From Moorella humiferrea (GTDB lineage: Bacteria; Bacillota; DSM-521; Neomoorellales; Neomoorellaceae): 64,000 nt of DNA. A program made the translations under genes and the position numbers. Location of the stretch: positions 408,001 to 472,000 of the forward strand of contig NZ_CP136419.1 in NCBI RefSeq assembly GCF_039233145.1, given 5' to 3'. Shown piece after piece: positions 20,094-35,760 of this stretch. Below the pieces are notes generated by a model. That model worked only from the letters and a program-made list of their open reading frames with translations. It did not search any database and had not been told where the DNA came from. Position 1 is the stretch's first letter; every line of letters starts with the position of its first letter.

Positions 20094-20287
20094 TTATAAC
20101 TCGAAGTTTCTAACTTGCTTAGGGAACGGAAACATAGCAAAATGAAGGCTTAAGACGCTTAAGCCGGGGCAAATATATTCGGTCCGCTCTTTATTACTAG
20201 TGAAACAGAGTACGAAAACCCCTTTATAAATTCGGAATAGATACCGGAAGCGGACCGGAAACTGTCTTGAAGGGAGAGCTGAAAACT

Positions 20288-21100
20288 TTGCTTGCCATGC
20301 CGGAAAAAAGCGTCCTGCTGGTGGAAGACTCGACACTCACCAGGTTTTCCTCAAGGAGAACACTGGAGGAGAAGGGCTACCTGGTGGACGAAGCCGCCAG
20401 CGGCCAGGAAGCGCTGGTTAAAGCCCGAGGGAAAGGAGAACCGTACGACCTGGTGATCCTCGACATCCACCTCCCGGGAATGGACGGCCTGGCTGTGCTG
20501 GAGAACCTCAAGCGCCTGCCGGAGTACCGTTACGTCCCGGTCATGGTGGTAACGGTCGAGAGCAACGCCGCCGTTGTCAAGAAGGCGATAGATCTGGGGG
20601 CGGTGGAGTACCTTTGCAAGCCCTACTCGGTCGAGGAGCTGGTGCGCCGCGTAGAGAAACTGATAGGACCGGGTGTCAGGGGAGAAGAATCCCCTGCGGA
20701 GATGCTCCATAAAGTACTCAGGAATGAGCTCAACCGGGCGAGTAGGGGCGGCTTAAAGGTAGCCCTGGTCCTGGCCAGGTCGGAAAAGTTGGGCAAGGGA
20801 AAGATTGGAGAATGCGCCAGGCAGGCGCGACGACGCCTGCGCGAGATAGACACCGTCATAGAGCTCAGCAAGAGCACGCTGGCGTTGATTCTCCCCCATA
20901 CGGGAAAAGAAGGCGCGCAGGTGGTAACGACGAAACTAGAGAGTTTCCTCCAAGGGACGTGGAGCTACGGGATTGCGGTATATCCCGACAACGGAAAGGA
21001 CGGGGAGGAGCTTTTCGCCTACGCCGAAGCTGCCCTTAAAGAGAGCTGGGAGAAAAAAGAGCCGGGTGCACCAGCCCAGCAGCAGGCGTCTGATACGTAG
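20288..21100 (+). CDS. response regulator with degenerate GGDEF-like output domain
   Basis: The N-terminal receiver domain has the acidic pair in VLLVEDS, the phospho-accepting Asp in LVILDIHLPGMDG, and the conserved Lys in YLCKPYS. The C-terminal half (about 140-255) retains the outline of a diguanylate cyclase fold (EIDTVIELSKSTLALILPHT, SYGIAVYPDNGKDGEELFAYA). The GGDEF signature is replaced by a sequence without the Gly-Gly-Asp core, so no cyclase activity is expected; it may bind a ligand or partner. I chose TTG 20288, with AGGGAG about 11 bases upstream; ATG 20297 and TTG 20267 are alternatives. No cognate kinase is adjacent. Confidence 0.75.
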   Translation: MLAMPEKSVLLVEDSTLTRFSSRRTLEEKGYLVDEAASGQEALVKARGKGEPYDLVILDIHLPGMDGLAVLENLKRLPEYRYVPVMVVTVESNAAVVKKAIDLGAVEYLCKPYSVEELVRRVEKLIGPGVRGEESPAEMLHKVLRNELNRASRGGLKVALVLARSEKLGKGKIGECARQARRRLREIDTVIELSKSTLALILPHTGKEGAQVVTTKLESFLQGTWSYGIAVYPDNGKDGEELFAYAEAALKESWEKKEPGAPAQQQASDT

Positions 21101-21248
21101 CATTCCAGGAAAACTTTACTTTTGGCCTGGAAGGAAGGATGCATAAAGTTGGCTCAAGAGGGGAGTGGGTGTCTGTACGGTCAGCAGCGAAATCTCCAAG
21201 TCGTGCGTTTTATGTTATGAATATCTAGCGGGAAGGAGAGGACATGCT

Positions 21249-22460
21249 TTGCGAAAGTTGTTGAGGAGTTTGCTTTTATCTTTAGCGGGGATAATTTTAG
21301 TTTTGCTATTTGCTTTTACTAGTAGTTTCGCGGCTATCAACCCCTTTTTAACTGCCGGCCAGGATGACACGCCCGCTTCGGAGCAAATTCTCGTTAAATT
21401 TAAACCCGGCATCCCTCAAGCCGTTAAGGAGAGGGTACATGTTCAAAATGATGCCCAGGTAATTGACGCTATCCCTGAGATAGGAATAGAAGTAGTTAAA
21501 GTAGCAAAGGAAAAAGCCCGGGAGAAGGTAGCCAATTACAGCCGCAATCCCCATGTGGAATTTGCCGAGCCAGACTACATAGCCCGCGCCGTTTTCATTC
21601 CTGATGATCCCTATTTTGAGAAACAGTGGGGAATGGCCAAGATTCAGGCACCAGATGCTTGGAAGGTGACCAAGGGGAGCCGGGAAGTAAAAATCGCCAT
21701 TCTAGATTCCGGGATTGACCAGGATCACGAAGACCTGAGAACCCAAATTGTGGCCAACGTTGATTTTACCCCTAGCAAGACGGTAGATGATAAATTTGGT
21801 CATGGTACTCACGTGGCGGGAATTGCTGCAGCGGCCACCAACAACGGCAAAGGGGTGGCAGGTGTCGGCTTTAAGTGCAGCCTCATGAACGTTAAAGTAT
21901 TGGGCGATGACGGGAGCGGTTACTATAGCTGGTTGGCCAAGGGTATAATATGGGCCACAAAAAATGGGGCCAAGGTCATCAATATTAGCGCCGGTAGCAA
22001 CAGGCCTTCTAAGGTATTAGAAAAAGCTATCAATTATGCCTGGAGCCGGGGAGTGGTCCTGGTAGCCGCGGCCGGTAATGACAATTCCTCAGCTCCCTTT
22101 TATCCCGCTTTTTATACCAATTGCCTCGCAGTAGGAGCTACAGACGAAAACGACAGCCGCGCGTTCTTTTCTAATTATGGGCCATGGGTGGACATTGCCG
22201 CCCCGGGTTTAAACATCTTTTCTACCACCCCCAACCACGACAACTATATTCACAATTATGGCATAGCCCTGGGCTACGACTACCTGTCAGGGACCTCTAT
22301 GGCCAGCCCGCACGTAGCCGGAATAGCAGCTTTAGTCTGGGCCAAGTATCCTGGCTTGAGCAATGCAGAGGTAAGGAAGAGGATCGAAGAAGGGGTGGAT
22401 CCTGCAGGGGGCTTTGATCCGCCTATAGGACGGGTTAACGCCTATAAGGCTTTACGCTGA
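21249..22460 (+). CDS. secreted subtilisin-like serine protease (S8, thermitase type)
   Basis: The catalytic triad is complete: Asp in IAILDSGID, His in GHGTHVAG, Ser in SGTSMASPH, with the oxyanion Asn in VAAAGNDN. An N-terminal signal peptide (LRKLLRSLLLSLAG then a hydrophobic run ending SSFAA) and an inhibitor-type propeptide (EQILVKFKPGIPQAV ... VEFAEPDY) precede the domain. TTG at 21249 follows AAGGAG by about 10 bases and puts the signal peptide at the very start; a longer frame to 21165 adds an implausible N-terminus. The enzyme is exported and self-processed. Its coding end overlaps the convergent PrcB-like gene by 9 bases. Confidence 0.88.
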   Translation: MRKLLRSLLLSLAGIILVLLFAFTSSFAAINPFLTAGQDDTPASEQILVKFKPGIPQAVKERVHVQNDAQVIDAIPEIGIEVVKVAKEKAREKVANYSRNPHVEFAEPDYIARAVFIPDDPYFEKQWGMAKIQAPDAWKVTKGSREVKIAILDSGIDQDHEDLRTQIVANVDFTPSKTVDDKFGHGTHVAGIAAAATNNGKGVAGVGFKCSLMNVKVLGDDGSGYYSWLAKGIIWATKNGAKVINISAGSNRPSKVLEKAINYAWSRGVVLVAAAGNDNSSAPFYPAFYTNCLAVGATDENDSRAFFSNYGPWVDIAAPGLNIFSTTPNHDNYIHNYGIALGYDYLSGTSMASPHVAGIAALVWAKYPGLSNAEVRKRIEEGVDPAGGFDPPIGRVNAYKALR

Positions 22461-22895
22461 AACATTAGTTTCGAGGCGGGCTAGTTCCAACCCCTTTTCT
22501 GCCACAAAGATAAACGTTAGCAGCCCGCGGGGAGATAAAGCAGCTTTAGCTACCTCAGCGACCATTAGGGGGCGAGTGATAACCTGGGGATAAAATTTTA
22601 GGGGTTCCGGCTCGATTAACTTTATTCTTATAATAACTTCCCGATCATGTTGGGCTATCTGCGAAATTGAGATCTTATAACCGGGATTGGGTTTTATCCC
22701 CCAGCAGGCGAGGAGATAAATATTTTGGATAAAGTCTGCTCCCTCGGGGGTTACATGGTAATACTTTTGGTAGTTTTCTTCAGTAAGCACTAAAAAAAGC
22801 GCTTCCGGGGAAGGTATGGCCCAGGACCCAGGATTGGGCAGGAGGCGGAAAGGTATAGAAGCATCCCTTCTACAGATAGGTGTACCGCTTTTCAT
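22452..22895 (-). CDS. PrcB-like protein (protease-complex family C-terminal domain)
   Basis: A 147-residue protein whose second half resembles the PrcB C-terminal domain: GYKISISQIAQHDREVIIRIKL, then a Pro-containing turn, then a beta strand ending in the C-terminal third. PrcB-type domains were named from a protease-stabilising partner, and it is notable that a secreted protease is encoded convergently. No signal peptide is seen with this start, and the true start is uncertain since the first 26 bases overlap the upstream GGDEF/HD-GYP gene. The N-terminal 45 residues match nothing I know. Confidence 0.5.
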   Translation of the reverse strand: MKSGTPICRRDASIPFRLLPNPGSWAIPSPEALFLVLTEENYQKYYHVTPEGADFIQNIYLLACWGIKPNPGYKISISQIAQHDREVIIRIKLIEPEPLKFYPQVITRPLMVAEVAKAALSPRGLLTFIFVAEKGLELARLETNVSA

Positions 22896-24543
22896 ATGCT
22901 TCTTTCACCGCTTCCAGAAAGAGGTCTACGAGCAACGGGTCATAGTGCTTACCAGCATATTTCTGCAATTCTTGGCTAGCTTGCAAAAAGGTCAGTGCCT
23001 TCTTGTAGGGGCGGTCGGTAGTCATGGCATCGAAGCTGTCGGCCAGGCGCACGATGCGCGCCGGGAGCGGGATTTCCTCTCCTTTTAAACCATCTGGATA
23101 ACCAGAGCCATCGTAGTTTTCATGATGGGAGCGAATAATTGGTGATATATCTTGGAAAAATAGTAAAGGTTTGACTATTTCGCTTCCTAATATTGTATGC
23201 ATCTTCATGATCTCCCATTCTCTTTCGGTTAAAGAACCTGTTTTATTGAGGATAGCGCTCTCAACTTCGATCTTACCCAGGTCGTGTAAATAGGCACCGT
23301 AGCGCAAGGTATCTTTTTCTTCCTCAGAGAGGGATAATTTTTTCGCTAGGGCCAAAGAATAAGACATAACCCTCTCCGAATGGCCGAAGGTGTAGCGGTC
23401 TTTGATATTTATCAGCGCCACCAGGGTCTGGAGGGTGGGGAAGGCTTCCTTGACTTTTAAGTGGGTTATCTCGCTTATTATAGAATAATAAAGGTAAGCG
23501 TCACCTCGTGAGTACTTGGTTCTGTATAGGTCATTTTCTGCCGCCCTCACCAGGGACGAAACCCCGTCAGCATCAGCCGGGTAGCTCGCTAATCCTGTAA
23601 CAATGGTAAAGGGCTTAAAAGGCGGCGTCCTTTCACTCTCCAGCAAGGAAACGGTGGCCCGGCTCACTATTTTTTCTTTTATAAGTGAAGTCACCCTGGC
23701 AGTCTCACTTTTTTCTTTCCCGGGAAAAACCAGGGCGAATTCATCGCTGCCGTAGCGGGCTGCATAACACGGCTCTTTGATTTCCTCCCCCAATAGTTGC
23801 CCGATGTTGGCTAAAATTTCATCCCCCTTCTGGTAACCGTATACCGTGTTAAAGTACTTAAATTGATCGATGTCTAATAAGGCAAAGGATACAGGAAGAT
23901 TTGCCGCTGCCGCTTTTTGCAAGGTTAGGGCCAGCTTTTCCTGCAGGTAGCGGTGGTTGTACAGTCCGGTTAATTGATCGTAATCGGCCAGCTGGAGCAA
24001 CTCCTGCCGGGTTTTCCTTTCTACTTCCATCAGCCCGCCCACCAGCCAGGTGAGCAGGAGATTAACGCCGGTGATGATGGAGTTTGTTTGGAAGATTTCG
24101 GGAGGCAAATAATTATGCAGCCGGTAATCCAGGAAAAAAAGGAGGGCGCTGGCCAGAACAGCGGCTGTTGTCCCCCCCAGCTTGCCCAAGCTGGTGGAGG
24201 CGATTATGGAGGGGACCAAAATCAAAACCTTGGCCCCGAAAAAATTATGGCTGTACCAGAGAAAGATAAAGGCCAAAGGGAAGATGACGGCCAGGAGTAA
24301 AATCTCATCTATCTGCGGCTGTTCCAGAGTAGTTATCCTGGGGAGGAGCTTGCCGGCAGTATACGCTATAATTGTTGCAGCGAATATAATAAACATAAAT
24401 AGCAAATACAAACGCAGATGTAAGCCTAACGGTAGATTATAAAAGCTGAAAACGATCATTAAAAAAATTAAAAGGCTGACGATATGGGTAACTAAAATAT
24501 ACTCGGATATCTCCTGCGCCCTCTTTTGCTCCCACTTGCGCAT
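22870..24543 (-). CDS. membrane GGDEF-HD-GYP protein
   Basis: A 557-residue protein. Five or six membrane helices occupy about residues 15-180 and form a likely sensor domain. A GGDEF domain follows at about 185-345 with the variant signature YGSDEF and no RxxD inhibitory site (KEPC occupies that place), so cyclase activity is doubtful. The HD-GYP domain (about 370-540) is complete, with HDLGK and HHENYDGSGYP. The likely net role is c-di-GMP breakdown. It lies 128 bases downstream of agrD, beyond a terminator, and overlaps the PrcB-like gene. Confidence 0.85.
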   Translation of the reverse strand: MRKWEQKRAQEISEYILVTHIVSLLIFLMIVFSFYNLPLGLHLRLYLLFMFIIFAATIIAYTAGKLLPRITTLEQPQIDEILLLAVIFPLAFIFLWYSHNFFGAKVLILVPSIIASTSLGKLGGTTAAVLASALLFFLDYRLHNYLPPEIFQTNSIITGVNLLLTWLVGGLMEVERKTRQELLQLADYDQLTGLYNHRYLQEKLALTLQKAAAANLPVSFALLDIDQFKYFNTVYGYQKGDEILANIGQLLGEEIKEPCYAARYGSDEFALVFPGKEKSETARVTSLIKEKIVSRATVSLLESERTPPFKPFTIVTGLASYPADADGVSSLVRAAENDLYRTKYSRGDAYLYYSIISEITHLKVKEAFPTLQTLVALINIKDRYTFGHSERVMSYSLALAKKLSLSEEEKDTLRYGAYLHDLGKIEVESAILNKTGSLTEREWEIMKMHTILGSEIVKPLLFFQDISPIIRSHHENYDGSGYPDGLKGEEIPLPARIVRLADSFDAMTTDRPYKKALTFLQASQELQKYAGKHYDPLLVDLFLEAVKEAYEKRYTYL

Positions 24544-24624
24544 CGACGCTTCTCCCTTGTCAAATTAAAGCTGAGCCGTGTTCTCCCCTTCACTTGCTTG
24601 GACCCGAGAGCCTCCATTATTCCC

Positions 24625-24662
24625 AAAAAATTGGTACCGGGAAGGGCGGGGCTTCCCGGTAC
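24625..24662 (-). terminator. Rho-independent terminator after agrD
   Basis: On the minus strand GTACCGGGAAG and CTTCCCGGTAC form an 11-bp perfect stem with a 7-base loop (24634-24662). After two bases and an A comes TTTTTT (24630-24625). It starts 10 bases after the agrD stop codon and would end the agr transcript. Confidence 0.8.
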
Positions 24663-24671
24663 GAAAGTGCT

Positions 24672-24803
24672 TTACTTGCGGAGGGACCTGGGCACCTCGG
24701 GCTGATAGAAAAAGAAATTACAAGTCGGTTTGACCCCAATAGCAGCGGCGAAGGCCAAGACGCTGAATGCAAAAGGCAAAAGGCGGTAAAGTAAACGCTT
24801 CAT
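24672..24803 (-). CDS. agrD: AgrD-like cyclic-lactone autoinducer propeptide
   Basis: A 43-codon gene. ATG at 24803 lies 6 bases after the agrB stop, with AGGTGAGAGGGG as ribosome-binding site. The product has an amphipathic, basic N-terminus (MKRLLYRLLPFAF), a hydrophobic stretch, then PTCNFFFYQPEVP and a short charged tail SLRK. The Cys four to five residues before the YQPEVP motif is the hallmark of AgrD propeptides: Cys would form the thiolactone ring of the secreted peptide, predicted around CNFFF. The immediate agrB neighbour, which processes such peptides, supports this strongly. Confidence 0.85.
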   Translation of the reverse strand: MKRLLYRLLPFAFSVLAFAAAIGVKPTCNFFFYQPEVPRSLRK

Positions 24804-24809
24804 CCCCTC

Positions 24810-25442
24810 TCACCTCCCTACTCCCGGTGAGATTATTTCGTCTATGAGAGTGGCAAACCGGTGTCCCGCCCTGGTCAAAGTAAAGGTCTGCCACCATAGA
24901 CCCAGGCTCAGGGCCAGGACTACGGCCGGGGCCCCGGCCGTAGCCAGCAGGGCAATTTGTACGGCGGCGATAAAAAATACGCTGGTAATGGATAAACGCC
25001 GCATTCTCTGGCGGTATTCCGGGGAAAGAAGGGGTTTGGCCGGAGAATCTACCGGGGCCAGGCGCCAGACGAAGGTTAAAGATAAGAGCGACCCCAGGAT
25101 AACTATTATGAAAAGGTTAAAGGGGCTTAAATGAGGTGTCAATATTAGAGACGTTTTCCCCAGGGCTGGGGAAACAACTGCCCCCAGCAGGGTGCAGGTT
25201 AGGGGCGACCGGCTGTGGGCCCCGCCGGACCAAAGGCGCAGGAAAGCTGCCGTTAAGGTAGCGGCCAGGGTGGTATACAGGCAGCCTAAAAGCCAGCCTA
25301 CCAGGCTGATGGACAGCAAGCTTATAAGGGGATAGATAATAACTTGCAGCCCATATAGGGCGATCTCTTCCTCATCCGGGGTCAAATTGAGCTTCTCCTT
25401 CAAGTAGGCGGCAGCCGGCCGGGTCAGGTTAAACCTTAACAA
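24810..25442 (-). CDS. agrB: AgrB-like peptide-processing membrane protease
   Basis: A 210-residue AgrB family protein with five to six membrane helices. The catalytic His and Cys are both present in GGAHSRSPLTC (His76 and Cys83, matching the positions known in staphylococcal AgrB). The enzyme cleaves the AgrD C-terminal tail and forms the thiolactone. TTG start at 25442 overlaps the end of the upstream membrane-protein gene, and agrD follows at once. No AgrC kinase or AgrA regulator is encoded in this window. Confidence 0.88.
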   Translation of the reverse strand: MLRFNLTRPAAAYLKEKLNLTPDEEEIALYGLQVIIYPLISLLSISLVGWLLGCLYTTLAATLTAAFLRLWSGGAHSRSPLTCTLLGAVVSPALGKTSLILTPHLSPFNLFIIVILGSLLSLTFVWRLAPVDSPAKPLLSPEYRQRMRRLSITSVFFIAAVQIALLATAGAPAVVLALSLGLWWQTFTLTRAGHRFATLIDEIISPGVGR

Positions 25443-25906
25443 ACCAATCCCCTCTTCTGGTTATAATAATTCTTGACTAAAGCCAGGACCAACAATAGTA
25501 CTGTGTAGGGAAGGGCAAAGGCTGCTCTCAAAAAAGGATTGGCGAAGACTTCTTCATATTCCAACCCGGTAAGGTTTAAAAGGGGTTGTGCGTAAAGTAG
25601 CTCGGCTGTGGCTATGAGAGCAAAGCATAGCAGGACGGCCAAAAATATTTTGGACAGTTGAGCGCGGGTGAAAAGGCGGGTATAGGCAGCTAAGGATAAG
25701 ATCAAAATTACCGAATGCACGCCAAAGGCGATGGGCAGTAGGCGCACCAGGTTGGTGAAGGTCTGCAACAGGGCAATGGCAAGAATCTTTCTATCTTTTA
25801 TCCGCAGGTTTAAAAGGCTAAAGACCGCCATCGTTTCAACCAGGCTTTCGGGAAAATCCTGGAGAAGCAAAGCATATATTATGCCTGGAAAAGTTTCTTT
25901 AAACAT
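25436..25906 (-). CDS. membrane protein of an agr-type locus
   Basis: About 156 residues with five hydrophobic segments and few charged residues. It starts MFKETFPGIIYALLLQDF and ends in a basic tail (KNYYNQKRGLVC). ATG at 25906 was chosen because AGGTGT lies 7 bases upstream; the in-frame ATG at 25930 has no such site. The sequence resembles the membrane-input part of Firmicute sensor kinases but has no kinase domain. First gene of the agr operon, overlapping agrB by 7 bases. It could be a peptide receptor fragment or an export aid; neither is shown. Confidence 0.6.
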   Translation of the reverse strand: MFKETFPGIIYALLLQDFPESLVETMAVFSLLNLRIKDRKILAIALLQTFTNLVRLLPIAFGVHSVILILSLAAYTRLFTRAQLSKIFLAVLLCFALIATAELLYAQPLLNLTGLEYEEVFANPFLRAAFALPYTVLLLVLALVKNYYNQKRGLVC

Positions 25907-25949
25907 CTTAGGACACCTCGGCTGCCGCATCTTTTTTCTTCGAAAGTTT

Positions 25950-25974
25950 ATTCGACAGAAAAGCTTTTTCTCCT
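25950..25974 (-). promoter_or_regulatory. sigma-H-like promoter of the agr operon
   Basis: On the minus strand AGGAGAA (25974-25968), 11 bases, GTCGAAT (25956-25950), 44 bases before the ATG at 25906. The first W of the -35 consensus is G here; the -10 element is identical to those of jetA and the CRISPR operon. Confidence 0.55.
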
Positions 25975-25991
25975 GCCAAAAAAAAGCAAAG

Positions 25992-28343
25992 TTACCCTCC
26001 CAACTCGATATTCAGGCACATTTCCTGCAGCCTTGCAGCGTGCCCTGCAGTAATGTAATCCTTTTCCTTCAGGGCTGCCAGCAGGGCGCCAACAATCTGG
26101 TTTCGCGCGCTGGCCCGATTTTGGAGCTTGTTGCGGTACATGAGGTCGTCGGCCTTCTTGAAGGTTTCTTCCAGGGATTCCGCTGCGTTCTGGCAGGTGG
26201 CCACCCCTAGGGAGAAGTGCAGGGGCAGCTCGGGATGTTCTTTATTGGAGGCCTCGATGGCCGAGCGGATCCGCTGGGCAAGGTCCTCTCCAGTTTTTTC
26301 GCCTGTTTTGGGCAGGATGGCGGCAAATTCATCCCCCCCAATGCGAGCCACAATATCTGAGCGGCGCAGGGAGGTTTTTAGAACACCAGCGCAGGCCTGT
26401 AACAGTTCATCGCCTTTAGCGTGGCCCAGGGTATCGTTGACCAGTTTTAGGCCGTCCAGATCCGCCACCAGGATGGTTATGGGATATTCCCGGCTGCCAG
26501 ACAAGCGCTTGAGCTCTTCCTGAAAGAAAGCCCGGTTATAGAGGCCCGTTAAAGAATCGTGCAGGCTTAAGAACCTTAACTGTTCCTCGTAGCGCTTGCG
26601 CTCGGTGATATCCAGGGTTGCCTCCACCGCCCCTATGACTTTTCCATCTTTATCCTTCACCGGCGTGGCGGTAATGCTCCAGAAGCGACCGTCCTGGGAG
26701 GCTACCTCACCTGTGCATACCTGGCCGGTTTCCATAGCCTGGACCACCGGGCAGCGAGGGCAGGGAGCGCTCTTCCCTTGCCATATTTCGTGGCATTTGG
26801 CTCCGAATAGCTCCTCGGGGTTCTTGCCCACGGATTGGCCCGCAGTCCGGTTGGCCCAAATGACGTGCATGTCCCGGTCCAAAAACGCGACCATCTCGGT
26901 AAGGCTGTCAAGAATCAGAGATTTTTCGGCCATTAACCTCTGCAGCTCTTCTTCCAGGATTTTACGCGGGGTGATATCGGTCAAAAAATGCAGGGTAGCG
27001 GGCTGCCCTTCCCATTCGATTACCACAGAGTTGGCCTCCATCCATTTGACGCTCCCGTCCTTGGCAAATATTCTGAAAGAGCAGGCATACAGAGGGCTTT
27101 TTTTCTCCAGCAATTCCCGGTAGTGCTGTACGGCACTTTCCCTGTCTTCGGGATGAATGAAGTCCAGGAAAGGTCTGGATAGAAGCTCTCCTGCCGTGTA
27201 GCCCGTGTGGGCCAGTGTTGCCCGGTTGACAAAGGTCACCACGCCGTCCTGGACAACGATGATGGTTTCAGTGGCGTTATCTACCAGAGAAGAGCATTTC
27301 TTTTCCTTCTCGCCTAGTTCCCGTTGGTACTCCTCAAGCCTTTCCAGCATTTTGCTGATTTCAGAGGAAAGAAGGGCAAGCTCATCCTTTCCCTCCAGAG
27401 GGGGTATTCCGGGGGCAGGGGAGGGAGAGCGGCCGATGCCAGTAACTACGGCGGTAAGCCGGGCCAGGCGGGAGAGAACTGCCCGGTCCACCCAGAACAA
27501 GGCAAGAAGGCAGCATAAAGCTGCCGCCAGCGCAAGAAAGAGGCTGAAGGCTTGTCTTGCGGACAGGAACGCCTGAGCGGCGCGCCGGTAGGAGTTCGCC
27601 TGGAGGATTAAGGCGCTTTCACCTTGCAAATCCTTAATGACGGCAAAGCCGGCGCTCTCCTCCGGGGAAACAATTTTTACGTAAAAGGGTTCTCCGTTTT
27701 TAAGGGTTCCCGCTGGCTTGAGCTCGCGGAAGTCTATGGCCTCCGGCGGGTGAAGGGAGAGGGGGAGACGGGTGATTTCCGAGAGCTCTTTCACATCTTT
27801 ATCCTTGAAGGTGCGGGCGAAGATAAGGGTCCCCCGGGCGGGGCCGCTACCATCACTTTTTAAAACGGGCCTGGCGGCCACCAGCACCGGCCCTTGTGGC
27901 GTTACCACCACCCCTTTAAGGCCGCCGGTTTGGTTATGGGCTGTAAAAACAATGCCGGGAGGTAAGGGTATTTCTTCGCCCGCTTCAGGGTCGTATCCTC
28001 TGGCGTATACTATTTCTCCCCTGGTATTTAGGAAAACTGCATAATTAAGCCTCAAAATTTGAAATACGTTATCGACCAGGTTTTTTTCTATATATTCCCG
28101 GTTCCTGTCCTCCACGAAGCTATACGTGTCGTCCCAGGTAGCCCAGTCTGCGGCAGATTTATCTAGCGCCGCTATTTCCCTTTCCAGGGCTTGCAGGGCC
28201 CGCTCCACATTCTCTCGGATACTTTCGTTTTCCAGCTTACCTGCAATATTCCCTGCTATAACATGGGAAACAGCAAAAAAAATAAGGGCAAGAAGGGCAA
28301 AGACGGCGCAGAAAACAAGGAGTACTTTGGTTTTTAAGGACAT
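25992..28343 (-). CDS. CHASE4-HAMP-PAS-PAS-GGDEF protein with a truncated HD-GYP domain
   Basis: A signal peptide/membrane helix (about 5-30) and a CHASE4 extracellular sensor domain (WATWDDTYSFVEDRNREYI) come first. Then a second membrane helix and HAMP region (about 265-335), two PAS domains (about 355-590, the second with the Cys cluster APCPRCPV), and a GGDEF domain with GGDEF and the RxxD site (RRSD). It should be an active diguanylate cyclase. The C-terminus begins like the HD-GYP domain of the 836-residue paralogue (IVGALLAALKEKDYITAGHAARLQEMC) but stops after NIELGG. The HD-GYP is lost. ATG 28343 with GAGGAG upstream was preferred to 28394. Confidence 0.85.
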   Translation of the reverse strand: MSLKTKVLLVFCAVFALLALIFFAVSHVIAGNIAGKLENESIRENVERALQALEREIAALDKSAADWATWDDTYSFVEDRNREYIEKNLVDNVFQILRLNYAVFLNTRGEIVYARGYDPEAGEEIPLPPGIVFTAHNQTGGLKGVVVTPQGPVLVAARPVLKSDGSGPARGTLIFARTFKDKDVKELSEITRLPLSLHPPEAIDFRELKPAGTLKNGEPFYVKIVSPEESAGFAVIKDLQGESALILQANSYRRAAQAFLSARQAFSLFLALAAALCCLLALFWVDRAVLSRLARLTAVVTGIGRSPSPAPGIPPLEGKDELALLSSEISKMLERLEEYQRELGEKEKKCSSLVDNATETIIVVQDGVVTFVNRATLAHTGYTAGELLSRPFLDFIHPEDRESAVQHYRELLEKKSPLYACSFRIFAKDGSVKWMEANSVVIEWEGQPATLHFLTDITPRKILEEELQRLMAEKSLILDSLTEMVAFLDRDMHVIWANRTAGQSVGKNPEELFGAKCHEIWQGKSAPCPRCPVVQAMETGQVCTGEVASQDGRFWSITATPVKDKDGKVIGAVEATLDITERKRYEEQLRFLSLHDSLTGLYNRAFFQEELKRLSGSREYPITILVADLDGLKLVNDTLGHAKGDELLQACAGVLKTSLRRSDIVARIGGDEFAAILPKTGEKTGEDLAQRIRSAIEASNKEHPELPLHFSLGVATCQNAAESLEETFKKADDLMYRNKLQNRASARNQIVGALLAALKEKDYITAGHAARLQEMCLNIELGG

Positions 28344-28527
28344 CCCCATATCTCTCCTCAAAGTCGACCATGGACGGGGAAGAGTATATATCAACGGTGT
28401 ATGTGTCGGCCATTACCCGGCAACCCTGGCGCACCCTGTCTTTGCCTATACGGGACGGCAGCGGCAGGATCGTTGGCGTGCTGGCAGCCGAGCAACGAAG
28501 CAAGCCAGCCACTTTGGAGCAAATGGG

Positions 28528-29106
28528 TTACTGAAGTGGAGCGAAAATTTCTTTTACTTCTACTGCAAATCCTTTCAATAAGATGGATTTAGCCTGGCCC
28601 GTTTCTTCGACATGATGGACAAGGACGAAATTTCCCTCCTTTTGCTGAAAAACCTCAATGCTTTTATCTTCGGGATCTACAATCCAGTATTCTTTTACAC
28701 CGCACCGCGCGTAAACACGGGCTTTTTTCTTTAAGTCATAATAGCCGGTAGAGGGAGAAAGAATCTCCATTACCAGGTCGGGAGCCCCTTTTATTTTTGT
28801 TGTTTCGATTATATGCAATCTATCCTTCGCGATAAAGATAATATCCGGCTGGTAGGTTTCTTTTTCCTCTAAAAATACATCTACAGGTGCGGTAAAAAGT
28901 ATCCCCAAATCCTTTCCCGCAAGGAAAAACAACAGCTTTTCAATCAGACGCATTAGTATGATCTGGTGATAGATACCGGGTGCGGGCGTCATAATGAGTT
29001 TACCTCCGATTAGTTGAAAGGGAGTTCCTTCCGGCAGCCTGGCGTAGTCCTCGTAAGTATAGCTGTTCTTAACGGGGATTATCATTTTTTCCTGGTAAAT
29101 ACCCAT
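28528..29106 (-). CDS. Uma2-family endonuclease
   Basis: A 192-residue Uma2 (formerly DUF820) protein with a PD-(D/E)XK fold. The conserved parts are YEDYARLPEGTPFQLIGGKLIM near the N-terminus and PDLVMEILSPST with KKARVYARCGVKEYWIVDP in the core, supplying the acidic and Lys residues. Such genes are numerous in thermophilic and cyanobacterial genomes, and their role is unknown; many are thought to derive from mobile DNA. It is divergent from the CRISPR operon and has its own sigma-A promoter. Confidence 0.85.
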   Translation of the reverse strand: MGIYQEKMIIPVKNSYTYEDYARLPEGTPFQLIGGKLIMTPAPGIYHQIILMRLIEKLLFFLAGKDLGILFTAPVDVFLEEKETYQPDIIFIAKDRLHIIETTKIKGAPDLVMEILSPSTGYYDLKKKARVYARCGVKEYWIVDPEDKSIEVFQQKEGNFVLVHHVEETGQAKSILLKGFAVEVKEIFAPLQ

Positions 29107-29170
29107 TGCAGTGCCCTCCTCTCATTATGACTTTCCAGCAGGCCTTTTCGGTAGTCACCAATCTAACTTT

Positions 29171-29200
29171 AGTATAGCCATTGCTGACCAGGTTTTTCAA
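29171..29200 (-). promoter_or_regulatory. sigma-A-type promoter of the Uma2 gene
   Basis: On the minus strand TTGAAA (29200-29195), 18 bases, TATACT (29176-29171), 65 bases before the coding start. Confidence 0.6.
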
Positions 29201-29259
29201 TCCTGGCGTATGGATGAATTTAGGTGAACAACCAACTTTAATTCTGTTGGCGCTGGAGC

Positions 29260-29285
29260 AGGAATTTTTTCCCTTGGTGTCGAAT
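29260..29285 (+). promoter_or_regulatory. sigma-H-like promoter of the CRISPR-Cas operon
   Basis: AGGAATT (29260-29266), 12 bases, GTCGAAT (29279-29285), 95 bases before the first gene. This fits the sigma-H consensus exactly. A small dyad AGTAG/CTACT further downstream (about 29309-29325) could serve the operon's own HTH protein as an operator. Confidence 0.6.
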
Positions 29286-29379
29286 TACTGCCTTACCACT
29301 GTTATACAGTAGTAATTTTCTACTAAAAAAATTGGTACTCAATCGTCTTGGCCATCCTGGAGCTTAAAGGCATGATGAA

Positions 29380-30270
29380 ATGGAACACACCAAGAAAAAC
29401 CGGCAGCATCCCGAAATTTTGATTGCCACCCTGGGTGTGGAGCCTCAGGTAGTGACTATTACCCTTGACCGCTTGCTAGCCGACGGTCGGTCTATCAGCG
29501 AGGTCGCCGTAATCTATACAGAGAACCCGGCGGTACGCCAGGCCCTGGAGATAGTTGCCGGCGAGTTTGCGGGTCCCTGCTACCAAGGTATCAGTTTTCG
29601 CCCGGTTCCAGTAGCCTTAGGGCGAGGGAAAATACAAGATTTTTGCAACGATGCCGACCTGCGCGCCCTGCTGCGCACCCTGTATGGTGAGGTGCGCCGC
29701 GCCAGGCAACAGGATTTTATTGTCCACCTGTGCGTTTCCGGCGGGCGCAAGGTCATGGCTATTATGGCCATGGTCGTGGCCCAGCTCCTGTTTGGGCCTG
29801 AGGACTGTGTCTGGCACCTGGTTACCGAGGGGTGGCAGCCCGGCGACCGGCGCCGCTTGCACCTACCTGCGGAGGAAAAAGTCTGGCTGGTACCGGTGCC
29901 GGTTTTGCGCTGGCGAGAAGCAGGTACGCTGATGCGCATGGTGGCCAGGCTGGATGACCCTGCGGAAGTAGTAGCCTGGTACGAAAAGTTAAGCCGTGAT
30001 GACCAGGAAAGGCGCAAGAGCGAGTTCATCCGGCACTGGTTGACGCCGGCCGAACGGGAAGTAGTTAAACTCGCCTGTTATGGTCTGGACAATAAGGCTA
30101 TAGCAGCCAGGCTTTATAAAAAAGAACAAACCGTAGCCAACCAGCTGCGCGGAGTTTATGAAAAGTTACGGGAATGGCTGGGCTACCCGCCTGGTATCGT
30201 CGATCGCAGCGTGCTAATCGCTGAATTTGCTTCCTATTTTCACCATCCAGGAAGGGATGACTCAACGTGA
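29380..30270 (+). CDS. CARF-domain (NE0113/Csm6-like ring-nuclease family) protein with LuxR-type HTH
   Basis: A 296-residue fusion. Residues 10-190 form a CARF-like domain of the NE0113 (Csx14-type) family: EILIATLGVEPQVVTITLDRL, then HLCVSGGRKVMAIMAMVVAQL and the VWHLVTEGW block. These domains bind cyclic oligoadenylate and some cleave it. Residues 220-275 are a LuxR-type helix-turn-helix (LTPAEREVVKLACYGLDNKAIAARL, then TVANQL). So it may be a transcription factor tuned by the second messenger made by Cas10. It is the first gene of the CRISPR operon and its stop overlaps csx15. The domain pair differs from the winged-helix Csa3 type. The HTH assignment is by motif only. Confidence 0.75.
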   Translation: MEHTKKNRQHPEILIATLGVEPQVVTITLDRLLADGRSISEVAVIYTENPAVRQALEIVAGEFAGPCYQGISFRPVPVALGRGKIQDFCNDADLRALLRTLYGEVRRARQQDFIVHLCVSGGRKVMAIMAMVVAQLLFGPEDCVWHLVTEGWQPGDRRRLHLPAEEKVWLVPVPVLRWREAGTLMRMVARLDDPAEVVAWYEKLSRDDQERRKSEFIRHWLTPAEREVVKLACYGLDNKAIAARLYKKEQTVANQLRGVYEKLREWLGYPPGIVDRSVLIAEFASYFHHPGRDDST

Positions 30271-30647
30271 AGATTATCAATTTTGCTCACCCCTTGACCC
30301 CGGCCAACCTGGGGGAAATAGCCAGGCTCAGCGGTGGTGGAGTGGAGGAAGTAATCGAGGTAACCTGTCATATCGATCCCCGTTGCACCCTAGAGCCCCA
30401 GATTGAGGCCCTGGTTGATAGCCTCGGGTTTAGCTCCTGGGAGTGGCAAACTGGCTCTTTCCTGTTCAATCTCCCTTCCCTTAATTACTGCGCTGCGGTA
30501 CTGGTGGCCCATCTGCACGGGCGTATAGGGTATTTCCCGGCTATGTTGCGCCTGCGGCCGGTAGATGAAAGCTTTCGTTGGCGCTTTGAAGTGGCGGAGA
30601 TTATCAACCTGCAGGCCGTTCGCGAGCGAGCGCGCAGGCGGCGATAA
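30267..30647 (+). CDS. csx15: CRISPR-associated protein Csx15
   Basis: A 126-residue protein matching the Csx15 pattern: MKIINFAHPLTPANLGEIARL, a Cys-containing middle, then SLNYCAAVLVAHLHGRIGYFP with MLRLRPV and the end VAEIINLQAVRERARRR. Csx15 is one of the small families proposed to be ring nucleases that destroy cyclic oligoadenylate and switch off the type III response. It overlaps the CARF-HTH gene by 4 bases, so sensor and proposed off-switch are made together. Enzyme activity is not proven for this family to my knowledge. Confidence 0.75.
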   Translation: MKIINFAHPLTPANLGEIARLSGGGVEEVIEVTCHIDPRCTLEPQIEALVDSLGFSSWEWQTGSFLFNLPSLNYCAAVLVAHLHGRIGYFPAMLRLRPVDESFRWRFEVAEIINLQAVRERARRRR

Positions 30648-30655
30648 GGAGGGAG

Positions 30656-31684
30656 ATGATGCAAGACATAATTCTTACTTGCGAGGTTTTAACGCCAATG
30701 TTTCTGGGTGGGGCGGATGCCAGGGAGCCAGAGTTAAGGGCGCCATCAATTAAAGGAGTCCTGCGCTTCTGGTGGCGGGCCCTCCACGGCTTTGACCCCC
30801 TGTTAAAAACAAAAGAAGGCAGTATATTTGGTTCGGCAGGTGAACATGCACAGAAAAGCAGAATCACCCTTAGAATTGAGGGAGAGGATTTAACTCCTTA
30901 CATTACAAAAGAACCCCTTCCCCGCCATACATATCAGGTAAAAGGACATGAATTGAATATCCTGGAGTACCTGGCCTACGGAACCTATATTTATAACCGG
31001 ATGCAGAGAAGGAATGAATTCTACCGCGCCTATATTAAACCTGGTTACAGTTTCAATCTAATCGTAAAGACAGATAATGAAGTTGATCTCCTGGAATTCT
31101 TCCTGGCTTTGCAGTATTTTTGCTGGTTCGGATCACTGGGAGCAAAAGCGCGCAATGGTTTTGGCAGCTTTAAAGTTAAAAATGTTAAAGGGCACCTTCC
31201 GGCCGGAGAGAAGATTGACTTAACCTCTCTTCCCGGGGCAAGTAGCCTGGCAAGTTTCAAGCAGTATACAGGGATTCCTAAATTCAGCGCCTTCTCTCAT
31301 GGAGCCAGGCTTTTTAGAACACGGCAGGATCACAGTACCTGGGATACCTGCCTGGCAGAACTGGGCCATGCCTATCGCCATGCCCGTCTCTCCCTGGAGC
31401 CCCCTCATTCTTATAAACGGCGCCAGTATATCGGTGCCCCGCTGATTGTTAACCAGAAGCAGCAATCCAGGCTGGCCAGGCACGCCAAACCTTATTTTCT
31501 GCGCGTCCATGAGTGGCAGGGAAGATATACAGGTTATATTCTTTACCTACCGTCGCGGTATTGTACAGGCCTGGCAGGAGAAATACCAGGGAACCTTAAT
31601 CTGGAAAAAGAGGATGCGGTCTTTTCCACTGCGTGCCAGGAAATGAATAAGGCATTAGGACGGTACCTGGAGGTGATAGATTGA
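30656..31684 (+). CDS. cmr1: type III-B effector subunit Cmr1
   Basis: A 342-residue RAMP protein beginning MQDIILTCEVLTPMFLGGAD, followed by the family signature APSIKGVLRFWWRALHG. It ends with a second RAMP fold. Cmr1 caps the 3' end of the crRNA-bearing backbone in the Cmr complex. The neighbours cmr2 to cmr6 follow in standard order, interrupted only by the CARF gene after cmr3. GGAGGG lies just upstream of ATG 30656. The last 4 bases overlap cas10. Confidence 0.9.
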   Translation: MMQDIILTCEVLTPMFLGGADAREPELRAPSIKGVLRFWWRALHGFDPLLKTKEGSIFGSAGEHAQKSRITLRIEGEDLTPYITKEPLPRHTYQVKGHELNILEYLAYGTYIYNRMQRRNEFYRAYIKPGYSFNLIVKTDNEVDLLEFFLALQYFCWFGSLGAKARNGFGSFKVKNVKGHLPAGEKIDLTSLPGASSLASFKQYTGIPKFSAFSHGARLFRTRQDHSTWDTCLAELGHAYRHARLSLEPPHSYKRRQYIGAPLIVNQKQQSRLARHAKPYFLRVHEWQGRYTGYILYLPSRYCTGLAGEIPGNLNLEKEDAVFSTACQEMNKALGRYLEVID

Positions 31685-33456
31685 ATTCCTTACTTATTTT
31701 TACTATCGGACCTGTTCAATCTTTTATCGCCCAGGCGCGTAAGACCCAGGACCTGTACGCCGGCAGTTATATCCTGTCCCATCTCTGTGGTACAGCCGCT
31801 CGGACGGCGCAGGATAATTATGAGGCGGAGATAATCTATCCAGATTTACATAATGGATCTTTACCGAACCGTCTTGTGGCTCTTCTTCCCGTAGGAGAAA
31901 AGGAAGAGCTGCAAGAAATAGGTCGTCAGTTAGAGAGTAAGGTAAGGGATGAGTTTGTCCAGATCGGGCGGCAAGTGGTCCGGTCTTTCGGTTTACCGGT
32001 AACTCCTGCCCTGGAAGCACAGCTACAGGATTTCTTGGAAATCTACTGGGTAGGAGGGAATTGCGAACCCTCCCGTTATGCTGAGCGTTACCGGCAAATG
32101 GAAGCTGTCTTAGGAGCGATAAAAAATACCCGCATCTTTTCCTCCGGGGGGGAACGGGGCCGGAAGTGCAGCATTACCGGCGAGCATAACGCCCTTTTCT
32201 ACCGGGGCGGGAAAAAGGCCTACCTGGAGCAGGCGTTCAGGGTGCCTGAAAGCGTGCCCAAGAAATACCTGGCCCCTGGAGAAGCTTTAAGCGGGATCGG
32301 CTTTATGAAACGGGCAGCCGCCAGGTATTTTTGCCATTGTTTGGGTGGAAATTTTGATTCTGACTTTCCTTCGACGGCCAGTATAGCACTAGCGGCAAGT
32401 CTCCACTTATTGCCAGCGGATATAGTTGAAAGCTATAAAAAAATTTTTGCAGGCGAATTTGACGATCAGTTCTTTTACCAGGAGAATTTAACCCCAAGAC
32501 GTTTTGCACTAGAAGGCTTGTCCCTAGAAAAATTACAACAGGCAGATGCGCTTCTCAAGGAACTGTATAGCGAAGCCAAAAAGCGAGGAATAAAGTTTAC
32601 GAAATACTATGCTCTCCTGGTGATGGATGGCGATAATATGGGCGAATGGGTAGCCGGTAAAAATCTGGCTGACCAGGGGCAACTGCCAGACTTCCAGCGC
32701 AACCTTACCCGGTACCTGGGTGCCTATGCCAGGGAGGCCAAAGCAATTTTGCAACTACCTCGAGGTAAGCTCGTTTATTGCGGCGGCGATGATGTCCTGG
32801 GTTTAATTAACTTGAACCATCTTCTGTCGGTCTTAAAAGATTTGCGGGATAAATTCCCGCCTTTGGAGAAAATCGCTAATATGTCTCAGCAGAAAACCTC
32901 CTCGACTTCAGGAGGAGTCTGTATTGCTCACTATAAAGCACCTCTGGCAGAAGTAATAAAATTTGCACGTAAAATGGAAGAAGTGGCCAAGGGGGTTGAC
33001 GGGAAGGACGCCCTCGCTATAGGTGTATTAAAACATTCAGGAGAAATCTGCCAGACTGTTTTCAGGTGGAAGTATGATAATTTGGAACCACTTTCTTTGC
33101 TGCACAGCCTGGTTGTTCTCTTGAGTACCGGCAAGTTTTCCGATACTTTTATCAGGAATCTATCCCGGGAATTCCGCTCCTTAATCCCACCTGCTGATGA
33201 GAGCCTGGCGAAGAAGAGCGGGAATATAGCATTAAAAGCGGCAGAAGAAGAGATGGTGGCAGCCGAAATCAAGCGCCTCTTGCAGCGCTCCTGCCAGCTG
33301 CAAGACCCTACGGAGGCAGATAAAATTGTGAGTGAGCTTCGGGAGAAGTTGTTTACCTTGTATTTAGAATGTGGCCTGGTTAATTTCCTTTCTTTTTTAG
33401 ATATAGCAGCTTTTCTATCCCGGGAGGTGCAGGTAATCAGTGAAGTTAAAGATTGA
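31681..33456 (+). CDS. cmr2: Cas10/Cmr2 without HD domain
   Basis: A 591-residue Cas10, short for the family. It starts directly with the ferredoxin-like Palm-type region (LLIFTIGPVQSFIAQARKTQDLYAGSYILSHL); the N-terminal HD nuclease is absent. The cyclase Palm is intact: MDGDNMGEW (315-322) and the signature YCGGDDVLG (366-374). It should therefore synthesise cyclic oligoadenylates on target-RNA binding but not cut DNA. The zinc-site region has a CSITG instead of the usual CxxC. TTG start at 31681 overlaps cmr1 by 4 bases. The cOA product would feed the CARF proteins of this operon. Confidence 0.9.
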   Translation: MNSLLIFTIGPVQSFIAQARKTQDLYAGSYILSHLCGTAARTAQDNYEAEIIYPDLHNGSLPNRLVALLPVGEKEELQEIGRQLESKVRDEFVQIGRQVVRSFGLPVTPALEAQLQDFLEIYWVGGNCEPSRYAERYRQMEAVLGAIKNTRIFSSGGERGRKCSITGEHNALFYRGGKKAYLEQAFRVPESVPKKYLAPGEALSGIGFMKRAAARYFCHCLGGNFDSDFPSTASIALAASLHLLPADIVESYKKIFAGEFDDQFFYQENLTPRRFALEGLSLEKLQQADALLKELYSEAKKRGIKFTKYYALLVMDGDNMGEWVAGKNLADQGQLPDFQRNLTRYLGAYAREAKAILQLPRGKLVYCGGDDVLGLINLNHLLSVLKDLRDKFPPLEKIANMSQQKTSSTSGGVCIAHYKAPLAEVIKFARKMEEVAKGVDGKDALAIGVLKHSGEICQTVFRWKYDNLEPLSLLHSLVVLLSTGKFSDTFIRNLSREFRSLIPPADESLAKKSGNIALKAAEEEMVAAEIKRLLQRSCQLQDPTEADKIVSELREKLFTLYLECGLVNFLSFLDIAAFLSREVQVISEVKD

Positions 33457-34537
33457 CCCCCTGGATACCCTTTTTTTCCGCGACGGTCGGCCCTTTACCA
33501 TGGGTGATGATAATTGGGCAGTAAGTATTTTTCCTCCTTCTCCCGGCGTGATTTATGGTGCTTTACGCAGTCTTTATTTCTCCTGGCATCCGAAAGAACT
33601 TGCTTTGGCCGAAACTGAGGCCGATCCTACGTCCGGTTTACAAATAACAGCTTTTTATTGGCTTATAGGTTCGGAAGGAGAAGGCAACCCTTATTATCCC
33701 ATGCCCCTGGATTGCGTCAGGCTGAAGCACAACCGGCGTGAACCCCAGCGTTTTTACCTGCTAACCATGAGCTCGCTGGGGAACCTGGTGACTAACTATC
33801 CTTTTACATGGTTGTTAACGAGCCAGGATGAGGAGGTAGAAGGTCCGGTAGGCTATCTCATAGATCACGAAAGCCTTAGGAATTACCTGGAAGGCAAAAG
33901 GGCAACATTTTTCGGCCTGGATATGAATTTCTATTTGAGCCGGGAGCTCAAAGTCGGGATTGGTCGGGATGCCGGCACCAGGGCGGCAGAAGAACACCGT
34001 CTGTACCGGGTAGAGATGTTACGGTTAAAAGATATGAGCCTGGCCGTTGATTATCAGGGTCTGAAATTGCCGGAGGAGGGCTTCCTGCGCCTGGGTGGGG
34101 AAGGCCGGGCAGCCGTTTACACCCATGTGGCAGGAGCAACAGAGGAACTGCCAGCTCCTGCAGGGGGCAGGTATTTCAAGCTTTACCTGGCTACTCCCGC
34201 CTTTTTTAAAGGAGGGTGGCGTCCCGGATGGATAAATCCAGAGGGCGTAGGTAATTATCAGGGTTTAAAACTAAAGCTACTTACGGCGGCTGTGGGCAAA
34301 CCACTTTCTATAGGCGGCTTTGATATAAAACGAAAGCAGCCCAAACCCATGCGCAAGGCCGTACCGGCGGGCAGTGTCTATTATTTTGAAATACTGCAAG
34401 GCACGATGGACGATGCTGTTAAGGTTTTCCACGGCCATTCAATAAGCGAGTATAGGGAAAAGGAGGGTTTTGGGCTCGCTTACATGGGCTATCTCGATCC
34501 CAAAAATCAAAGTATCTTAGAGAAAGGAGAAACCTGA
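33440..34537 (+). CDS. cmr3: type III-B effector subunit Cmr3
   Basis: A 365-residue RAMP protein. The N-terminus LKIDPLDTLFFRDGRPFTMGDDNWA followed by FPPSPGVIYGALRS is diagnostic for Cmr3. The C-terminal glycine-rich segment (KPLSIGGFDIKRKQPKPMRKAVPAG) is also typical. Cmr3 binds the 5' handle of crRNA next to Cas10. The gene overlaps cas10 by 17 bases and is followed one base later by the CARF gene. Confidence 0.9.
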   Translation: MKLKIDPLDTLFFRDGRPFTMGDDNWAVSIFPPSPGVIYGALRSLYFSWHPKELALAETEADPTSGLQITAFYWLIGSEGEGNPYYPMPLDCVRLKHNRREPQRFYLLTMSSLGNLVTNYPFTWLLTSQDEEVEGPVGYLIDHESLRNYLEGKRATFFGLDMNFYLSRELKVGIGRDAGTRAAEEHRLYRVEMLRLKDMSLAVDYQGLKLPEEGFLRLGGEGRAAVYTHVAGATEELPAPAGGRYFKLYLATPAFFKGGWRPGWINPEGVGNYQGLKLKLLTAAVGKPLSIGGFDIKRKQPKPMRKAVPAGSVYYFEILQGTMDDAVKVFHGHSISEYREKEGFGLAYMGYLDPKNQSILEKGET

Positions 34538-34538
34538 G

Positions 34539-35738
34539 ATGCTGGTTATTACCACTGTGGGCACCTCCTTGCTGGAAAATTACCGCGAGAATCACTCCGA
34601 TATCGATATGGATTATCTTTATTTAAAGGAAGAACCGGCGTCAAACTGGGATAACAACGAGCGGCGGATAAACAAAATTAAAAGAGCCCTGTTGAACTGG
34701 GCCCAGGCGAAGAAAGAGACCTGCGCTGAGATTAAAAGCCTCTTTAGCATTCGCCATCATAATACTAAAGAAATAGAGGTGCGGCTGCTGGCCACGGATA
34801 CCATCCTTTCCCGCTTGGTAGCCGAAGTCCTTGAACAGGTCCTCAAGGACGAAATGAAAATATTTTTTGAGCCGGAAAAAGATGTTATCAAAGGCCTGCA
34901 GGTATGGGATAGAAAACGTTTTGAAAAGGAAGGATTAATAAACCTTATCGCCAGGATCGAAGAACTAGCATTTACCTGCAAAGAGATAGCTATTAATTTT
35001 ACTGGTGGCTACAAGGCGATTATCCCCTATATTACCATTATGGGACAGCTTAACAATATTCCACTCTACTACATATTCGAAGATACCGATGAGCTTATCA
35101 GGTTGCCCCAGGCACCCCTGGACATCAATTGGGGTATTTTTGAGAAGTACAGCCATATCATTGAAGACCTGGCCGGGGGAATTTATGACTGGAGCCGATA
35201 TAAATTAGAACATCCAGTAGAGGAAGATTTCCAGGCCTGTATCTGGGAAGAAGGCGAATGCGCAGAATTAAATGCCATTGGCCGGATGTTTTGGAACAAG
35301 TATCACAACTATTTCGTGGTAGAAGTCTTGAAGGGGTTCAGCTATAGCAAAGATAGCAGCGGTAACAAGCGGGAAATCAACGAGGCCCTGCAGGAACTCT
35401 ACGGCCGGTTGGAGAGTTTAATCAAAGAGAATAAACTCCGGACCACAGAGGAACTCCAAATATACATAAACTCGCTGTCTGAAAAGAATGATCTCCGCCA
35501 TGGCGAGAACCCCGACAGGGACAAATACATTTTCAAGTCAACCAGAAAGAGCCAGATCAGGCTTGTCTATACCCCCATTATTAAACCTTACGGTCTGAGC
35601 CTGCGCCTTTTTGATTATGTCAGGGGCGATTTTGATCATGGCGAGTATATTAAAGAATTCAAGCAACGGATGAATATGCTCACAGAACCGGATTTTATTG
35701 TTATTACTTTGAGAAAGCCCTTAGGTAACAAATTTTAA
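34539..35738 (+). CDS. CARF protein of the APE2256 family with a possible RelE-like C-terminal effector
   Basis: A 399-residue protein. The N-terminal half is a CARF domain of the APE2256/TIGR02619 type: VITTVGTSLLENY, then AINFTGGYKAIIPYITIMG, then YYIFEDTDELIRLPQAPLD. The C-terminal part (about 330-390) reads KYIFKSTRKSQIRLVYTP and LRLFDYVRGDFDHGEYI, a strand pattern recalling RelE/HigB toxins. CARF-RelE proteins (Cami1) are known type III effectors that cut mRNA at the ribosome. No HEPN motif (R-x4-6-H) was found. Its place inside the cmr block supports an effector role. The CARF part is firm, the RelE part tentative. Confidence 0.7.
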   Translation: MLVITTVGTSLLENYRENHSDIDMDYLYLKEEPASNWDNNERRINKIKRALLNWAQAKKETCAEIKSLFSIRHHNTKEIEVRLLATDTILSRLVAEVLEQVLKDEMKIFFEPEKDVIKGLQVWDRKRFEKEGLINLIARIEELAFTCKEIAINFTGGYKAIIPYITIMGQLNNIPLYYIFEDTDELIRLPQAPLDINWGIFEKYSHIIEDLAGGIYDWSRYKLEHPVEEDFQACIWEEGECAELNAIGRMFWNKYHNYFVVEVLKGFSYSKDSSGNKREINEALQELYGRLESLIKENKLRTTEELQIYINSLSEKNDLRHGENPDRDKYIFKSTRKSQIRLVYTPIIKPYGLSLRLFDYVRGDFDHGEYIKEFKQRMNMLTEPDFIVITLRKPLGNKF

Positions 35739-35760
35739 AAAGCTAACAGGGGGTTGAAGA

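Follow-up and report, generated by a model that had tools for sequence, protein, structure and literature searches.

A conserved agrBD unit with a kinase-less sensor protein and a putative c-di-GMP effector as candidate receiver

Introduction

An agrBD cassette with no kinase leaves open which protein hears its peptide. Such a cassette is found in the window analysed here, the whole stretch of 64,000 nucleotides from Moorella humiferrea (positions 408,001 to 472,000 of contig NZ_CP136419.1). What could its receiver be? Comparative genomics names a concrete candidate with a readable output, cyclic di-GMP (c-di-GMP). The cassette belongs to a four-gene unit, and we consider it rather probable that this unit is an agr-type quorum-sensing system. 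A CNFFF thiolactone would be read by a kinase-less membrane protein, here called SENS, together with the N-terminal membrane domain (NTD) of an NTD-GGDEF-HD-GYP effector, and would thereby change c-di-GMP breakdown.

Results

Table 1 Features of the agr unit and its upstream neighbour (positions in the window)
Feature	Position	Strand	Size	Description
CHASE4-PAS-PAS-GGDEF protein, upstream	25992..28394	-		Probably a diguanylate cyclase
SENS	25436..25906	-	156 aa	ATG start at 25906; five predicted helices, without kinase domain
agrB	24810..25442	-	210 aa	TTG start; PF04647, E 1.9e-36
agrD	24672..24803	-	43 codons/aa	ATG start; TIGR04223, E 3.7e-10
Terminator-like hairpin between agrD and effector gene	24634..24662	-		11-pair stem, then T-rich tail
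NTD-GGDEF-HD-GYP effector	22870..24543	-	557 aa	GGDEF, E 2.2e-30; HD_5, E 1.5e-40
NTD, effector's N-terminal membrane domain	23962..24543	-	194 aa	Alignments A1 and A4
GGDEF domain	23509..23988	-		Signature GSDEF; no RxxD site before it
HD-GYP domain	22936..23427	-		HDLGK and HHENYDGSGYP intact

The agrB and agrD genes

The agrB product matches PF04647 with 125.6 bits (cut-off 23). Its stretch GGAHSRSPLTC has His and Cys seven residues apart, the spacing of staphylococcal AgrB. The gene overlaps that of SENS by 7 nt. Its end at 24810 leaves a gap of 6 nt to agrD, as originally predicted. The AgrD product (...KPTCNFFFYQPEVPRSLRK) scores 39.7 bits against NCBIfam TIGR04223 (cut-off 19), and 18.5 bits against the staphylococcal family PF05931, under the Pfam cut-off of 22.7. 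It has a ring cysteine, Cys28, and the conserved (D/E/Q)P motif. Together with Cys28, the TIGR04223 score confirms the original assignment of the 43-codon gene, which adjoins agrB, as agrD. CNFFF is the predicted thiolactone ring and is followed by YQPEVP. In the four closest copies of the unit the AgrD leader is nearly constant and the rings read CNFFF, CSVCF, CVFFF and CVFFF.

The effector gene starts 128 nt downstream of agrD, beyond the hairpin. The original prediction had a strong terminator closing the locus at this place. The 11-pair hairpin with its T-run is there, but it does not close the system, since the effector gene stays 3' of agrD in relatives. An operon that ends at the terminator was therefore rejected. 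Terminator-like hairpins occur in 22 of 38 agrD-to-effector gaps, against 0.7 expected from shuffles, which for some gaps possibly used mononucleotide shuffling. This excess suggests that partial termination after agrD is part of the operon design. The hairpin could also separate the effector gene from the cassette, a point against the reading favoured below. A promoter scan gave hits no more frequent than in shuffles. An Rfam search of window positions 21000-29500 returned nothing at gathering scores, hence no known c-di-GMP riboswitch there.

A conserved four-gene unit

The order SENS, agrB, agrD, NTD-GGDEF-HD-GYP is repeated across the closest group of loci (L038-L048). Some units depart from it. 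L041 lacks agrB, and all that separates SENS from agrD there is an apparent 3' remnant of the gene (positions 10126-10238, on the same contig as L186); SENS, agrD and the effector are retained, and the genome has another agrB at a split-AgrC locus (L051). At L116, agrB is an 89-aa fragment and SENS is absent. The pattern scan gave no agrD at L042.

We searched SENS in 61 genomes, found a match in 30, retrieved the flanking DNA and mapped its genes; open frames came from a simple script and gene starts are approximate. Among 14 named SENS relatives in the genome_contigs collection, whose genomes are partly the same as in the larger sample described below, all have SENS, agrD and NTD-GGDEF-HD-GYP, and 13 also have agrB. 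They include Moorella mulderi, M. stamsii and Syntrophaceticus schinkii, as well as metagenome bins labelled Thermanaeromonas, Ammonifex and Thermacetogenium.

A profile of the NTD only (A1, 20 rows) was then run over 299 genomes of the phylum. It matched at E <=1e-5 in 53 of them and, within the class, in 16 of 22. The 54 strong NTD proteins comprise 39 with GGDEF-HD-GYP and 15 with a histidine kinase. Profiles for GGDEF, HD-GYP, GHKL and HK were built from the analysis's own matches, with a Pfam check on 15 proteins. We called the context of a gene visible when both genes, or 2 kb or more of upstream sequence, were seen, which biases the counts slightly toward positives. Eleven loci outside the 299-genome sample and three proteins at contig ends were left out of these counts, and 14 weak matches were kept apart. 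SENS and agrB both lie within 3 kb on the same strand for 34 of the 37 NTD-GGDEF-HD-GYP proteins with visible context (25 of 28 when alignment seeds are excluded). The other three contexts show SENS only, agrB only and neither. For the 14 NTD-kinase proteins with visible context, SENS and agrB are both present in seven, SENS only in three and neither in four; with seeds excluded, both are found in 6 of 12. The weaker NTD matches have SENS and agrB in just 2 of 14 cases.

Thus, agrBD forms the central part of a conserved unit of four genes, SENS, agrB, agrD and the NTD-GGDEF-HD-GYP effector. The recurrence of this unit does not bear out the idea of an orphan agr locus, which we reject. Among the four closest copies, dN/dS is 0.16-0.48 for SENS, 0.27-0.38 for agrB and 0.08-0.25 for the effector. 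These values indicate that all three genes are maintained, and a decayed AgrC was rejected on the same grounds.

A 27-kb record labelled as a Klebsiella plasmid (NZ_CP061968.1, L199) also matches the effector (42% over 99%) and carries broken pieces of SENS and agrB. It has the appearance of a misassigned Bacillota contig, contaminating that assembly, and was left out of the counts.

The CHASE4-PAS-PAS-GGDEF gene is found upstream of SENS at L038 and L040 and is absent there at L039 and L041-L048. Because only these two mapped loci of the window's group have it, we regard it as accessory and rejected it as a core part. At 20267-21100, some 2 kb away from the effector gene, a receiver-GGDEF protein is encoded; its gene, the CHASE4-GGDEF gene and the effector gene form a small cluster related to c-di-GMP. 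At 29380-36714, divergent from the agr operon, lies a type III CRISPR-Cas-like cluster with a CARF-type regulator, named by eye.

SENS resembles the sensor part of AgrC-type kinases

The window SENS shares 97% identity with the Moorella mulderi protein and 90% with that of M. stamsii. Its AlphaFold2 model has five long helices and a mean pLDDT of 89.6. When 70 members of the SENS family were compared with Pfam, a single member matched a single family (E 0.0011), the others having no match at 0.01. Comparison with solved structures gave a best E of 0.23 by sequence, no Foldseek match with E <0.001 and a best VIA-align Z of 5.5. Profile comparison found SENS and the NTD unrelated.

A fused clostridial SPOB_a/GHKL kinase (L058) gave a clear match, with 148 columns of SENS aligned to its N-terminus at an hhalign probability of 99.6%. 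The fused kinases that match SENS consist of a SENS part, a further membrane part, SPOB_a and GHKL, which is the AgrC architecture. They are set beside agrB/agrD (L058, L072) or a response regulator (L067), and at least 26 SENS matches in the phylum fall within frames of 440-496 aa. At agr loci of another class, SENS comes directly before a separate SPOB_a/GHKL protein of about 285 aa, as an AgrC split in two. Because of the homology to the N-terminus of fused AgrC-type kinases, and because SENS precedes a separate SPOB_a/GHKL kinase elsewhere, it appears to be the sensor piece of AgrC-type kinases, with the NTD protein replacing the kinase in the present unit. The membrane region of Listeria AgrC gave an hhalign probability of 1.9% in a comparison of low power, the yardstick being a single sequence, and another kinase (L201) gave 0.8%. 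Since similarity to Listeria AgrC is undetectable, SENS may represent a sensor family of its own with the same role.

SENS was found in 109 of the 299 genomes. In 4 of 51 contexts it adjoins an NTD protein without agrB. This retention of SENS next to the NTD favours a role in reception over one in peptide maturation. At L135, L142, L071 and L126, SENS stands beside an NTD protein with no same-strand agrB; such loci may listen without producing a peptide themselves.

The effector carries an exchangeable output

The label HD-GYP or kinase changes seven times on the NTD tree, a quick tree made without bootstrap, and at least three of the changes are forced by well-supported branches. Outputs have thus been exchanged, and the NTD appears to be a swappable input domain for an HD-GYP or a histidine kinase output. 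Pfam assigns the window NTD to no family. Of 61 members, 16 match DUF4118, 10 PilS-like and 6 MASE1 families at E <=0.01, so the NTD appears loosely like these widespread membrane families. The NTD model has a pLDDT of 80.6. Its best Foldseek match is ImcA (PDB 8wcn), a membrane diguanylate cyclase of Pseudomonas, with E 0.068 and probability 0.99; VIA-align superimposes the two with Z 11.0, rmsd 5.2, 189 aligned residues and 11% identity. Across adenylyl cyclase and ImcA anchors, VIA-align Z ranges from 8.6 to 12.9, values that helical models can reach by chance. The modelled resemblance of the NTD to these membrane anchors is a lead only.

HDxGK is present in all 48 GGDEF-HD-GYP members, and HHExxDGxGYP in 47, the exception being a frameshifted copy. 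By contrast, GG(D/E)EF is kept in 30 of the 48. The window clade has mostly GSDEF, GNDEF or ANDEF, and the window copy, with GSDEF, departs from the signature of active diguanylate cyclases. The near-universal HD-GYP motifs point to a predicted phosphodiesterase for c-di-GMP or a related cyclic dinucleotide as the conserved output, with a probably regulatory GGDEF domain in the window clade. The nearest solved HD-GYP relatives are 5z7c, a 3'3'-cGAMP-specific phosphodiesterase, and 4mcw. HD_5 has ten matches in the genome, only one of which has an agrB neighbour.

Other agr loci of the genome

The original prediction had noted that agrC and agrA are missing nearby. Indeed, the operon has no AgrC-type kinase, and no LytTR regulator lies within 4 kb of it. 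It had also called for a genome search for agrC-like kinases. In the whole 2.67-Mb single-contig genome this search finds only two GHKL kinases, at about 669 kb and 915 kb. Each belongs to an agr locus other than the present one, which has an agrB and an agrD of its own, and we therefore rejected a stray AgrC of that family elsewhere in the genome.

At both loci SENS comes directly before a separate SPOB_a/GHKL kinase, and the 668-kb one also has a LytTR regulator. LytTR-type regulators with agrB are found at 669-681 kb. The first locus (667998-671000, L035) reads SENS-GHKL-LytTR-agrB-agrD. A second LytTR-agrB-agrD copy lies about 10 kb away (680133-680869, L036); the two agrB genes have similar beginnings, and each copy is followed by small putative secreted proteins. 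The split-AgrC locus at 914156-916405 (L037) holds SENS, a SPOB_a/GHKL kinase, agrB and an agrD with a Ser ring, a setting seen again in genomes of the group (L062, L066, L068, L070).

The ring sequences read at these other loci are SLLAW at 916 kb and SWLAW in the 680-kb copy, both with Ser in first place. In the mapped loci, 37 of 41 AgrDs at NTD loci have a Cys-first ring and 14 of 14 at GHKL-kinase loci a Ser-first ring; this is a raw count that ignores kinship, over AgrDs found by pattern, with 3 of 58 set aside for want of a typed partner. The count gives a hint that the chemistry of the ring and the type of receiver go together.

Discussion

A proposed two-part receiver for the agr peptide

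The homology of SENS, the exchange of outputs behind the NTD and the presence of SENS beside NTD proteins that have no agrB suggest that the receiver is SENS plus NTD, with an interchangeable output. The original prediction that a membrane signalling protein of the neighbourhood, perhaps the kinase-less one, senses the peptide keeps its place as the best-supported guess, with the amendment that the data favour SENS and NTD together. On a genomic basis that is firm, we infer the following mechanism. AgrB would cut AgrD and close Cys28 into the CNFFF thiolactone ring. The exported peptide would be sensed at the membrane by SENS and the effector NTD. Peptide binding would alter HD-GYP activity, with either sign, and thereby the level of c-di-GMP or of a related cyclic dinucleotide. 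Rather than a cyclase, the GSDEF domain would probably be a GTP-binding regulator, and the hairpin 3' of agrD probably allows more agrBD product than effector to be made. Several findings count against a SENS-NTD receiver: four of the 14 NTD-kinases lack both SENS and agrB, only 2 of the 14 weaker NTD matches have agr genes, no similarity of SENS to Listeria AgrC is detectable, the NTD is loosely like widespread families, and some units are without a part (L041, L116).

A single receptor would do without a complex. In that case the NTD alone would read the peptide and SENS would be a decoy or modulator, or the reverse. No SENS-NTD fusion is seen in the mapped loci, and a lone 6TM domain can be a quorum receptor, as reported for CqsS (PMC4821796). 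The SENS and NTD genes are nevertheless constantly near each other under both kinds of output, and we find this explanation unlikely.

Two further explanations appear improbable, both to the same degree. One is that the CNFFF peptide is sensed by one of the two split AgrC kinases of the 668-kb and 915-kb loci, and that the local SENS and effector answer something else. Those loci do offer SENS-GHKL pairs, one of them with a LytTR regulator; however, each makes its own AgrB and AgrD, the Ser-first rings are unlike CNFFF, and the four-gene unit persists in relatives. The other makes SENS an accessory of peptide maturation or export alongside AgrB and no receptor. Its gene overlap with agrB and the lack of a Pfam function would fit such a role, whereas the fusion of SENS to SPOB_a/GHKL kinases, or its position directly before them, and its place beside NTD proteins at loci that have no agrB speak for reception. 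Finally, a decaying agr remnant, suggested by the absent kinase and the degraded GSDEF signature, is hardly credible in view of the dN/dS values and the recurrence of the four genes across the phylum.

We thus favour reception by SENS and NTD together, and see in the locus a recurrent agr quorum-sensing variant with a putative split, kinase-less receiver and a c-di-GMP-type output, larger than originally stated. It is plausible, although on balance not quite probable, that it represents an undescribed and widespread agr branch. There, a thiolactone would be read by a two-protein membrane receptor, made of a kinase-less AgrC-type sensor and a 6TM-type domain, with an interchangeable output that is mostly a c-di-GMP phosphodiesterase and otherwise a histidine kinase. 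If true, a direct peptide-to-c-di-GMP route would be added to Gram-positive quorum sensing, in which a peptide signal acts on a second-messenger enzyme with no phosphorelay. A hitherto unnamed family of sensor proteins would be defined as well, and AgrC would prove to be divided in nature into a sensor subunit and effectors that can be swapped.

Comparison with known systems

In searches of an open-access library, we found no title or opening of an abstract that describes such an agr/c-di-GMP operon. We know of no agr link for ImcA, and its likeness to the NTD model may mean a mere common helical arrangement.

The canonical agrBDCA systems of staphylococci, Listeria and clostridia have in common with the window locus the AgrB and AgrD families, the Cys-based ring and the (D/E/Q)P motif. 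They have an AgrC kinase and AgrA; the window locus has instead a kinase-less sensor and a membrane GGDEF/HD-GYP protein.

Control of a c-di-GMP phosphodiesterase by a quorum signal is known from the DSF systems RpfC/RpfG and RpfR, and the enzyme of RpfG is of the HD-GYP kind. Unlike the window unit, DSF systems use a fatty-acid signal and soluble effectors, and occur in Gram-negative bacteria.

The 6TM quorum receptor CqsS and the 6TM anchors of class III adenylate cyclases offer the example of a membrane domain in front of a nucleotide-messenger enzyme, as in the window effector. Grafting CqsS onto a class III adenylate cyclase brought the enzyme under ligand control (PMC4821796), which means that a 6TM-type domain can be a receptor. 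The CqsS ligand is CAI-1, with no known SENS-like partner and no peptide signal, unlike in the window unit.

A parallel may be drawn with Clostridium difficile R20291, where transcript levels of three c-di-GMP phosphodiesterase genes are reduced in an agrA mutant (PMC3754575). The link between agr and c-di-GMP is shared; in that species it is indirect, whereas here the predicted enzyme is encoded within the agr operon.
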